From the NCBI RefSeq assembly GCF_003026395.1, contig NZ_PYOO01000009.1, forward strand, positions 62,001 to 126,000: a stretch of 64,000 bases of DNA, read 5' to 3'. Shown one piece after another: positions 47,198-49,765 of this stretch; within the stretch, counting starts at the first letter, position 1, and each line of letters starts with the position of its first letter. Origin of the DNA: Photobacterium iliopiscarium. GTDB lineage: Bacteria > Pseudomonadota > Gammaproteobacteria > Enterobacterales > Vibrionaceae. The position numbers were made by a program, and so were the translations under genes. The notes below the pieces were generated by a model. That model was not told where the DNA came from. It worked only from the letters and a program-made list of their open reading frames with translations, and ran no database searches.

Positions 47198-47515
47198 CTA
47201 TTCATTAATGTCTTCGTAACTGATGCCCATTGCATCCATTAATGCTTTTGCTTCTGCGGGCAAGTCATCTGGGTGGTCTTTACGAATGTCATCATCGGTT
47301 GGTAATGGTTGACCTGTGTAAGCATGTAGGAATGCTTCACAGAGTAATTCACTGTTGGTAGCGTGGCGCAGGTTATTGACCTGACGGCGAGTACGTTCAT
47401 CAGTAAGAATTTTGAGAACCTTTAATGGAATAGACACTGTAATTTTTTTTACTTGTTCATTTTTTTTACCGTGTTCTGCATAAGGGCTAATATATTCGCC
47501 ATTCCACTTTGCCAT
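47198..47515 (-). CDS. metJ: Methionine repressor MetJ
   Basis: Ribbon-helix-helix repressor that uses S-adenosylmethionine as corepressor. The 105 residues contain the DNA-contacting strand [46 protein letters not shown], essentially the E. coli MetJ core. Divergent from metB; the shared 304-bp region contains four tandem met boxes. Confidence 0.98.
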
Positions 47516-47819
47516 GTTTTACCTTCTCAGCGATGTTTAATTAATGGTGATAACAATGTCGCGATGACGGTTGTTAGTACATAGTCATGATAGGCGGCGA
47601 TATTACGTGAACATCGTTAGTTTGTCCTCTACCGTGGCATATAACAGTTACTAGATCACGACTATTTTTTTCAATTATTGAATTTTAGCGGGATTTACCG
47701 CTATAAGCAAAGACATATAGACGTCTAGCTGTGTTGACGTCTCATTTTGATGTGGTTAAGGTTATTGCCGTGACCATTATTTATTTCAGGGCTCACCCCC
47801 TATAACAAGGAACGTTATT
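47516..47819. other. Divergent control region metJ / metB
   Basis: The 304-bp region holds the promoters of both genes. The met boxes at 47711-47742 are 78 bp upstream of the metB start. Apart from these I see no ORF or RNA structure. Confidence 0.75.
47711..47742. promoter_or_regulatory. MetJ operator: four tandem 8-bp met boxes
   Basis: Contiguous octamers AGACATAT, AGACGTCT, AGCTGTGT, TGACGTCT. The second is the exact consensus AGACGTCT and the fourth differs by one base. MetJ binds such tandem boxes as arrays of dimers. Position upstream of metB and opposite metJ fits repression of both. Confidence 0.93.
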
Positions 47820-48986
47820 ATGAGTGATAAGCAGCTTGCAACTATTGCAGTTCGTACCGGTATTGATGTTGATTCACAATACAATGCAATTGTTCCGCCC
47901 ATTTATTTAACTTCAACCTATAGTTTTCCCGCTTTAGGTGAGTTACCGCAGTATGATTATTCCCGTTCAGGTAATCCGACTCGAAATACATTGGCTGATG
48001 CCTTGAGTGATATGGAAGGCGGTGCGGGTGGGGTAGTGACTAGTTGTGGTACTGCTGCGATGAATTTATTGGTCTCAGCGCTCTTGGGACCTGATGATTT
48101 ATTGATTGCTCCCCATGATTGTTATGGTGGCAGTTACCGTTTATTTAATACTCGCGCGCAGAAAGGCGATTTTAAGGTGCTGTTTATTGATCAATCTGAT
48201 TCTGAGGCCTTAGCGGCGGCGTTCGCACAAAAACCAACCTTGCTATGGCTTGAAACCCCCTCTAATCCTTTAGTGCGCGTGATTGATATTTCGGCGATCT
48301 GCCAACAAGCACAGACGGTTGGTTGCCAAGTTGCGGTTGATAACACCTTCCTATCACCATTATTACAACAGCCATTATCGCTTGGCGCTGATTTTGTAGT
48401 GCATTCAACCACCAAATATATTAATGGCCACTCTGATGTTGTCGGGGGTGTTCTCATTGCTAAAGACCAAGCGGCGGCGGAAAATCTAAGTTGGTGGGCC
48501 AATTGTATTGGTGCAACGGGGGCACCCTTTGATGCGTATTTGACCTTACGTGGATTACGCACGTTAGCACCAAGAATGCGGATGCATGAAGAAAATGGTG
48601 CGGCAGTACTGGCTTATTTACAGCAACAACCGCTGGTTGGCACCATTTATCATCCAAGTTTACCGACCCATGCAGGGCATGAGATTGCTAAGCGTCAACA
48701 ACGTGGTTTTGGGTCGATGATGAGTTTTGAATTTGCTGGAAGTTATCAACAACTGGAATTGTTTGTAAAAACGCTACAGTTATTTTCATTAGCAGAATCA
48801 TTAGGGGGAACGGAGAGTTTAATTGCTCATCCCGCATCGATGACCCATCGCGCAATGACTGATGACGAACAGCGAGCGGCAGGGATTTCAACTTCTTTAT
48901 TACGGCTATCGGTTGGTTTAGAAGATTCACGTGATTTAATTGCTGATCTTATGCAAGCATTTGTTGCTGCCGAGGCGATCTGTTGA
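47820..48986 (+). CDS. metB: Cystathionine gamma-synthase
   Basis: PLP enzyme of the Cys/Met metabolism family joining O-succinylhomoserine (or an acyl analogue) and cysteine to cystathionine. In 388 residues: YDYSRSGNPTRNTLADALSDMEGG (about 43-66), VDNTFLSPLLQQPLSLGADFVVHSTTKYINGHSDVVGG with the PLP Lys in STTKY (about residue 198), and the C-terminal LLRLSVGLEDSRDLIADL. AAGGAA precedes the ATG. It is directly followed by a metL remnant where other enterobacteria and vibrios have intact metL. Confidence 0.96.
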   Translation: MSDKQLATIAVRTGIDVDSQYNAIVPPIYLTSTYSFPALGELPQYDYSRSGNPTRNTLADALSDMEGGAGGVVTSCGTAAMNLLVSALLGPDDLLIAPHDCYGGSYRLFNTRAQKGDFKVLFIDQSDSEALAAAFAQKPTLLWLETPSNPLVRVIDISAICQQAQTVGCQVAVDNTFLSPLLQQPLSLGADFVVHSTTKYINGHSDVVGGVLIAKDQAAAENLSWWANCIGATGAPFDAYLTLRGLRTLAPRMRMHEENGAAVLAYLQQQPLVGTIYHPSLPTHAGHEIAKRQQRGFGSMMSFEFAGSYQQLELFVKTLQLFSLAESLGGTESLIAHPASMTHRAMTDDEQRAAGISTSLLRLSVGLEDSRDLIADLMQAFVAAEAIC

Positions 48987-49150
48987 TAAAAAAAGCTACG
49001 CCAGTGACATAAATTTGGTGGTAGTCGTTTTGCTGATTTGCATATTTTTGCGATTGAAAGCCCGTGGTATTGCGAGAATCTATTAGTGATTCGAGTGCTA
49101 ACCGGTGAGCGACAATGCTGTAGTTGATAGCGTTGGTATTCAGTGCCTGT
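48987..49150 (+). pseudogene. metL: Deletion remnant of metL (aspartokinase II / homoserine dehydrogenase II)
   Basis: Directly behind metB one frame (from 48996) reads LRQ-stop-HKFGGSRFAD and then without a break HIFAIESPWYCENLLVIR, followed by degenerate sequence with stops. HKFGGSS-x-AD is the beginning of the MetL aspartokinase domain (E. coli QLHKFGGSSLAD), and FAIESRWYRDNPLVIR is about 25 residues from the end of its homoserine dehydrogenase domain (from memory of E. coli MetL). The junction lies at about 49037-49041, so roughly 760 codons are missing. An in-frame TGA (49005-49007) precedes HKFGG. The strand and position match the ancestral metB-metL operon. The tail up to the terminator is too degraded to align with certainty. 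Confidence 0.85.
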
Positions 49151-49153
49151 AAT

Positions 49154-49186
49154 AAAAAAGCCGCAGTTCAAACTGCGGCTTTTTTG
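49154..49186. terminator. Bidirectional terminator metB/metL remnant and aphA
   Basis: AAAAAAGCCGCAGT (49154-49167) with ACTGCGGCTTTTTT (49172-49185), TCAA loop. It can serve both convergent transcripts, and probably is the ancestral terminator of the met operon. Confidence 0.94.
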
Positions 49187-49198
49187 TTGGATATAAAC

Positions 49199-49765
49199 TT
49201 AGTTGATAGCGACTGCACTACCTTCACTGTCCATATCTTTCAGTTCAGTTAATACTTCTTCTGCCCATAATATCCAAGCTTGGCGGTTATGAAGCCCGCG
49301 ACGCAAGGTTAAACGGTCGAGACGTTGTTGACGATCCATGTTTTTGTAATCGCTAAAATGAATTTGCTCTAGCTCTTGATAATGACCAATTAAATTGTGT
49401 GATTCATCAATTAAAGATTCAAGTTGCTGCTGCATGGGTAATGAATTGTGAACGCCACAAATCAGTAGTTTTGCAGAAAATTCATCGCGCGTGGTTGGAT
49501 TACGAGCAGGCTCTTGGAACCACTCAAATAATGCCTGACGACCAAGATCGGTAATTGAATATACCTTACGATCAGGTTTACCATCTTGAGGTTCAAGGCG
49601 GCAGGTTACTTGATCATTTGTCGCCATTTTATTGAGTTCACGATACACCTGCTGGTGGCTCGCTTTCCAAAAATAACCGATACTGTGTGAAAATTCTTTG
49701 GTTATATCGTAACCAGTTGCTTCTCGAGTGCTAAGCACTGTTAAAATTACATGTGGTAGTGACAT
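49199..49765 (-). CDS. aphA: PadR-family quorum-sensing regulator AphA
   Basis: A 188-residue winged-helix protein whose N-terminus MSLPHVILTVLSTREATGYD and following KEFSHSIGYFWKASHQQVYRELNKM agree nearly word for word with Vibrio AphA as I remember it, as does the C-terminal coiled-coil ending RLTLRRGLHNRQAWILWAEEVLTEL. AphA is the low-cell-density master regulator in vibrios and activates virulence genes in V. cholerae. It lies next to ppc, as in V. cholerae. The tail is about nine residues longer (DSEGSAVAIN). Regulation by Qrr sRNAs is known in vibrios; see the upstream region. Confidence 0.92.
   Translation of the reverse strand: MSLPHVILTVLSTREATGYDITKEFSHSIGYFWKASHQQVYRELNKMATNDQVTCRLEPQDGKPDRKVYSITDLGRQALFEWFQEPARNPTTRDEFSAKLLICGVHNSLPMQQQLESLIDESHNLIGHYQELEQIHFSDYKNMDRQQRLDRLTLRRGLHNRQAWILWAEEVLTELKDMDSEGSAVAIN

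Follow-up and report, generated by a model that had tools for sequence, protein, structure and literature searches.

Known losses of metL

In the metJBLF cluster of gammaproteobacteria, metJ adjoins and diverges from metB, and metL lies behind metB (Augustus and Spicer 2011, PMC3228920). In the portion of that survey available to us, all 16 of the Vibrionales in its set carry metL, and the organisms without metL all have thrA, which possibly covers the function. The same portion describes an unannotated metL pseudogene in Sodalis glossinidius, a bacterium that has lost metL and kept most of its methionine biosynthetic genes.

The locus considered here lies in a 64,000-nucleotide stretch of Photobacterium iliopiscarium DNA (the whole stretch analyzed, hereafter the window; its genome is designated G000). 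It shares with the metJBLF cluster the divergent metJ-metB pair and the position of metL, but of metL only two stumps remain, and the locus has no metF (Table 1). metF is also not behind metL in the metL-bearing relative G048. Like S. glossinidius, G000 has lost metL and kept most of the methionine biosynthetic genes; unlike it, G000 is a genome of 4.3 Mb, and its metL has suffered one large internal deletion that left both ends. With a metL pseudogene already reported in Sodalis, the scar is a further case of a known kind. It is not described in the titles and abstract openings among the matches listed in a literature search on Photobacterium metL, methionine, and pseudogenes, and the available portions of PMC9201721 and PMC6842964 contain nothing on it.

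The metL relic behind metB

Table 1. Features of the metJ-metB locus in the window (plain positions) and of related loci (positions prefixed by locus or genome)
Feature	Position	Strand	Description
metJ, methionine repressor	47198-47515	-	Intact; Pfam PF01340 9.1e-55, NCBIfam MetJ 3.5e-61
Candidate met boxes	47719-47742		Between metJ and metB; AGACGTCT at 47719-47726, TGACGTCT at 47735-47742
metB, cystathionine gamma-synthase	47820-48986	+	Intact, 388 aa; NCBIfam NF006463 6.9e-220 and TIGR02080 5.5e-186, both over cut-off
5' stump of metL	48986-49036	+	Aligned with nine metL-bearing relatives and G009; 500 shuffles
Old metL start codon	48986-48988	+	Now ATA; overlaps the metB stop in G048
Early stop	49005-49007	+	TGA where G048 has a leucine codon (TTA), then HKFGG..AD
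Deletion junction	49037-49042	+	About 2.23 kb of metL missing; same junction in G009
3' stump of metL	49043-49123	+	Ends in the old stop TAG, 49121-49123
Old operon terminator hairpin	49154-49185		Stem 49160-49179; A and T tails; shared with the converging PadR-type gene
PadR-family regulator	49199-49765	-	Converging; Pfam PF03551 2.9e-15; 3' border of the locus
metL of G048	L034:1167-3581		2415 nt; start within a TGATG overlap with the metB stop
metL scar of G049	L047:4930-5106	-	The two ends of metL abut directly behind metB; early frameshift and stop
metB-PadR gap of G010	L046:5120-5195		76 bp
Aspartokinase-only MetL relative, G083	L206:2345-3766	-
Aspartokinase-only MetL relative, G085	L207:2367-3752	-
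Aspartokinase-only MetL relative, G112	L208:1773-3140	+
MetL-type enzyme of G067	G067:C1:1320493-1322889	-	56% identical to G048 MetL
thr leader attenuator of G000	L168:2620-2800	-	Upstream of thrA
MTHFR-like protein of G000	L197:2926-3936 (G000:C39:166425-167435)	-	About 337 aa

The relic occupies 138 nt 3' of metB, from the old metL start to the old stop (48986-49123). A first-pass annotation had given its extent as 48987-49150, which stands as far as the old stop, but positions 49124-49150 are spacer. It had also described a short frame joining the beginning of MetL to its near-end, with a stop ahead of HKFGG, and both points are borne out. Read from 49008, directly behind the TGA, the frame is HKFGGSRFADLHIFAIESPWYCENLLVIRVLTGERQCCS, beginning HKFGGSRFADLHIFAIESPWYCENLLVIR. 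BLASTP against the intact MetL of G048 (804 aa) returns two separate matches, one to residues 9-18 (8/10 identical, E=7e-4) and one to residues 763-780 (14/18 identical, E=3e-7; both E values are for a single comparison), and so each half matches its own end of the protein at the right place.

The same holds at the DNA level. Local alignment of 48987-49150 with the metL genes of nine relatives gives scores of 41 to 65 for the 5' ends and 63 to 83 for the 3' ends. The best scores among 500 dinucleotide shuffles of the interval were 34 and 31, respectively, and none reached the real scores for any relative; the likeness is therefore not due to chance. A homologous gene start and gene end thus lie in order behind metB, but the aspartokinase and homoserine dehydrogenase domains are gone along with the roughly 2.23 kb that spanned both. 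A PF00742 profile search of the window found no match; the intact MetL of G048, for reference, scores 1201 bits against NF007003. Judged by its sequence, 48986-49123 is a relic of MetL and is itself no MetL.

How much was lost? Read by hand against the G048 gene, the shared central deletion comes to about 2225-2233 nt and the net loss to 2277 nt, in keeping with the 2.2 to 2.3 kb first estimated. A further 39 bp are absent from G000 at about 49100/49101; they are still present in G009, its nearest relative, and in the metL-bearing relatives and must therefore have been lost later in the G000 lineage. Later changes have blurred the exact breakpoint, which can be placed only to within about 6 bases. 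Direct repeats were considered as the cause of the deletion and set aside, since none beyond a few bases could be shown at 49037-49042 in the present-day sequences. The inactivating lesions are thus the ATA start, the TGA at 49005, the deletion itself, and private length changes.

The surroundings of the gene have remained. Both gene ends and the old operon terminator had been claimed to survive, and they do: the stumps align to metL, and the hairpin is kept at -24.7 kcal/mol (z -6.78). The same hairpin is found in G009, G048, and G029, and the same PadR neighbor stands at the locus in G048, G009, and G010; in G048, 65 nt separate the end of metL from this converging gene. Upstream of metB, the candidate met boxes were called against the met-box consensus. 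The exact AGACGTCT at 47719 is one of two in the window, a number reached by 5 of 100 shuffles, and TGACGTCT was found by eye.

A loss shared with the nearest relative

The nearest relative of G000 is G009 (matched to Photobacterium carnosum TMW 2.2021), with a MetB 98% and a ThrA 99% identical. The deletion junction, the ATG-to-ATA loss of the start, and the TGA for the leucine codon all recur at its locus, which also has private changes: 8 bp are gone at the junction, and the stretch near the start is one base shorter. Since junction, start loss, and early stop are common to both genomes, the loss predates their split. The same comparison bears on whether the deletion is an artefact of assembly or sequencing, a suspicion that any draft assembly invites. 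An artefact is not expected to recur with the same junction and different later changes in the separately assembled G009, and this explanation is extremely improbable.

Outside this pair, both metL ends align in nine close relatives: G048, G029, G028, G019, G051, G024, G006, G046, and G020. Five of these were matched to named species (G029 to P. piscicola, G028 to P. phosphoreum, G019 to P. kishitanii, G024 to P. malacitanum, and G006 to P. aquimaris). Eight of the nine have an open metL-type frame of 808 to 821 aa at the locus; in G046, the two ends of the gene fall on separate contigs, and the frame is a partial one of 247 aa. metL is therefore kept in the genomes matched to P. piscicola and P. 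phosphoreum; a methionine need of P. phosphoreum is on record in classic reports. The same scar followed by an intact metL was not seen in the nine aligned relatives or in G009, G010, G047, and G049, and the other 38 of the 52 Photobacterium genomes were covered only at the level of gene presence: in 38/38, the metB contig bears a second homoserine dehydrogenase.

When did the loss occur? By sequence divergence, it is older than the split of G000 and G009, which differ at 16.4% of metB fourfold sites (30/183). Taking the MetB tree, it came after the lineage had parted from G048 and G029, at 43 to 46% of such sites. The proposal that the scar dates the event thus holds as a relative bracket between two splits, but not as a date in years.

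What remains of metL appears to be decaying. Between G000 and G009, 19 of 155 aligned sites over 48987-49150 differ (12.3%), a part of these sites being the spacer behind the old stop (49124-49150). This is indistinguishable from the rate at metB fourfold sites (P=0.35) and exceeds that over all metB sites (58/1164, or 5.0%; P=0.0014), as expected of unconstrained evolution, for this one genome pair and 155 sites. Might the relic nevertheless serve as a short functional element, such as a small peptide, a leader, or a 3' untranslated region setting the stability of the metB mRNA? The two ends do happen to share one open frame in the window, and the terminator hairpin is kept. However, the old start offers no ATG, the frame is broken differently in G009, the substitution rate is not distinguishable from that at fourfold sites, and the two genomes differ in length by 39, 8, and 1 bp. 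A functional element is very unlikely, and the scar gives no sign of retained function over the few sites of this one pair.

Homoserine without MetL

What supplies homoserine in a bacterium that has lost MetL? The G000 assembly consists of 43 contigs and is 99.98% complete. A PF00742 profile search finds one homoserine dehydrogenase in it, which NCBIfam names ThrA (1263 bits); it is intact, 819 aa long, and 94 to 99% identical to its counterparts in six close relatives. There are eight amino-acid kinases (PF00696), of which three were scanned with NCBIfam. Besides ThrA, these three comprise an aspartokinase of the lysine-sensitive III type (NF006570, 657 bits) and a second monofunctional one (NF006459, 555 bits) that adjoins an alaS-like gene, the latter label being our own reading of the neighboring frame. 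The first-pass annotation had argued that the organism must rely on ThrA/LysC-type enzymes, and enzymes of both types are indeed present. No second homoserine dehydrogenase was found in G000 by the PF00742 profile or by a MetL protein query, which matches only ThrA and the two monofunctional aspartokinases. With ThrA the only such enzyme found, homoserine must come from ThrA.

An alternative is that metL moved, or that another homoserine dehydrogenase elsewhere in the genome replaced it; a gap between the 43 contigs could in principle conceal a copy. However, the single homoserine dehydrogenase match recurs in the separate assembly of G009, where the MetL query likewise returns ThrA and two further aspartokinase-type matches, and G000 itself is nearly complete. 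Relocation or replacement can be given hardly any credence.

Among the other methionine enzymes, searches recovered MetA in 13 of 13 genomes and MetH in 17 of 17, each set containing G000. MetE is present in G000; 4 of the 17 genomes searched have no PF01717 match. That thrA occurs in all metL-less organisms of the Augustus and Spicer set, as given in the available portion of the paper (PMC3228920), fits the idea that ThrA alone suffices.

Two forms of compensation were considered and rejected. The first is a relaxed attenuator of the threonine operon. The terminator hairpin of the thrA leader is predicted at -17.2 kcal/mol in G000 and G009, versus -19.6 to -19.9 in G048, G029, G028, G019, and G051, a C having been lost at the hairpin base in the former two. 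The metL-bearing G003 has the same base loss, and the metL-less G010 and G049 keep the full form (by eye, as do G024, G006, G046, and G020), which rules this idea out. The second is a change inside ThrA: in a ten-row ThrA alignment inspected by eye, no substitution confined to the metL-less genomes stands out in the ACT region.

metL in Photobacterium and other Vibrionaceae

Among 329 Vibrionaceae genomes, 326 have a PF00742 match: at least two in 314 and one in 12 (both counted by eye), with none in the other 3. Five of the 12 single-match genomes are Photobacterium (G000, G009, G010, G047, and G049), and metL is missing in these 5 of the 52 genomes of the genus. In 46 of the 52 (counted by hand), the contig with metB also carries a second homoserine dehydrogenase, about 3 kb away from where metB begins, and in G046 it is on another contig; relatives thus have the homologue at the very place of the scar.

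How often has metL been lost? On a tree of the 52 MetB proteins, a single-gene tree, the metL state needs at least three changes, which are read as losses; uniting the five metL-less genomes in a single clade is rejected (p-AU 8.2e-6). A grouping of G047 with G049 is not rejected (p 0.295), and the branch that bears G047, close to G010, is a long one; three is therefore the minimum on this tree. The scar in the window, an ordinary pseudogene relic, records one of several losses of metL in Photobacterium.

A close parallel is the independent scar of G049 (matched to uncultured Photobacterium sp. N510-Z); the MetB tree pairs this genome with G025 (matched to P. marinum AK15), which has retained metL. 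As in G000, a two-ended scar with an early lesion in the frame lies behind metB; unlike in G000, the junction is a different one, within a short CTGG-containing stretch resembled by both sides, and metF still follows. No metL stump is recognizable in the short metB-PadR gap of G010 (matched to P. damselae), and in G047 (74% complete), metB is followed directly by metF on one contig.

Partial losses occur in the wider family. In G083, G084, G085, G112, and G125, the MetL query finds a relative (51 to 54% identical) with the aspartokinase half only. These genomes resemble G000 in that the MetL-type homoserine dehydrogenase half is gone, but differ in having retained the aspartokinase half. Where the locus was read (G083, G085, and G112), the frame is 455 to 473 aa long and in two of the three lies between metB and metF. 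G286 (73% complete) has a relative 44% identical, again the aspartokinase half only. The reverse of the window case is seen in G067, a 2.1-Mb Vibrionaceae genome in which the MetL-type enzyme has been kept as the only homoserine dehydrogenase.

MetF and a divergent MTHFR-like protein

A full MetF match (PF02219) is absent in 18 of the 52 Photobacterium genomes, including G000; the 40 genomes over the PF02219 cut-off include six weak partial matches (24.0 to 24.2 bits) to an MTHFR-like protein of about 337 aa. The MetB tree places these 18 in a single group of 19 rows, the other member being the MetF-bearing G047, and requires two changes. A link between the losses of metF and metL was considered and set aside: metL is missing in 3 of the 18 genomes without a full MetF match versus 2 of the 34 with one, which shows no clear link.

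The divergent MTHFR-like protein is present in all 18 MetF-less genomes, and only G005 of the 34 MetF-bearing ones also has it. The G000 copy matches MTHFR weakly and only in part (22.1 bits; cut-off 24) and is strongly similar to an uncharacterized solved structure, PDB 3IJD (E 2.8e-60), on which a literature search returned no match. The complementary distribution suggests that it is a candidate non-orthologous replacement for MetF. A search near its gene in G000 gave no tandem met-box match, which counts against such a role. The available portion of Augustus and Spicer proposes a metF2 for four Alteromonadales (PMC3228920); the protein described here is likened to it by role, as another proposed MetF substitute, and not by family.

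What the scar means

Overall, we put a probability of roughly 0.96 on the reading that metL was lost in the common ancestor of G000 and G009 through small lesions and an internal deletion, that its relic is decaying, and that ThrA is the sole source of homoserine. In that ancestor, the start codon of metL would have disappeared, an early stop would have arisen, and about 2.23 kb would have been deleted from the interior of the gene, in whatever order, and the remainder would since have decayed under no visible constraint. metB and the terminator remain, and metB would now be the last gene of the transcription unit. ThrA, whose gene is there, would supply homoserine for both methionine and threonine, with the two monofunctional aspartokinases presumably adding aspartyl phosphate. 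This arrangement may have a cost. In Escherichia coli, ThrA is the threonine-inhibited isozyme, and MetL is not inhibited by threonine; methionine is therefore predicted to become limiting when threonine is plentiful, which may be tolerable where methionine is supplied as well.

That Photobacterium repeatedly discards MetL, with several species making methionine on ThrA alone, is a broader and rather doubtful proposition. If it were true, methionine supply would collapse at abundant threonine, and the losses would be tied to amino-acid-rich hosts and meat. For a pair of Photobacterium species, the scar itself sets bounds on when one of the two homoserine dehydrogenases was lost. A genome of 4.3 Mb left with a single isozyme where there had been two should be useful for models of aspartate-pathway regulation, and two-ended scars of this kind, with no open gene inside, are easily overlooked in tables of gene content.
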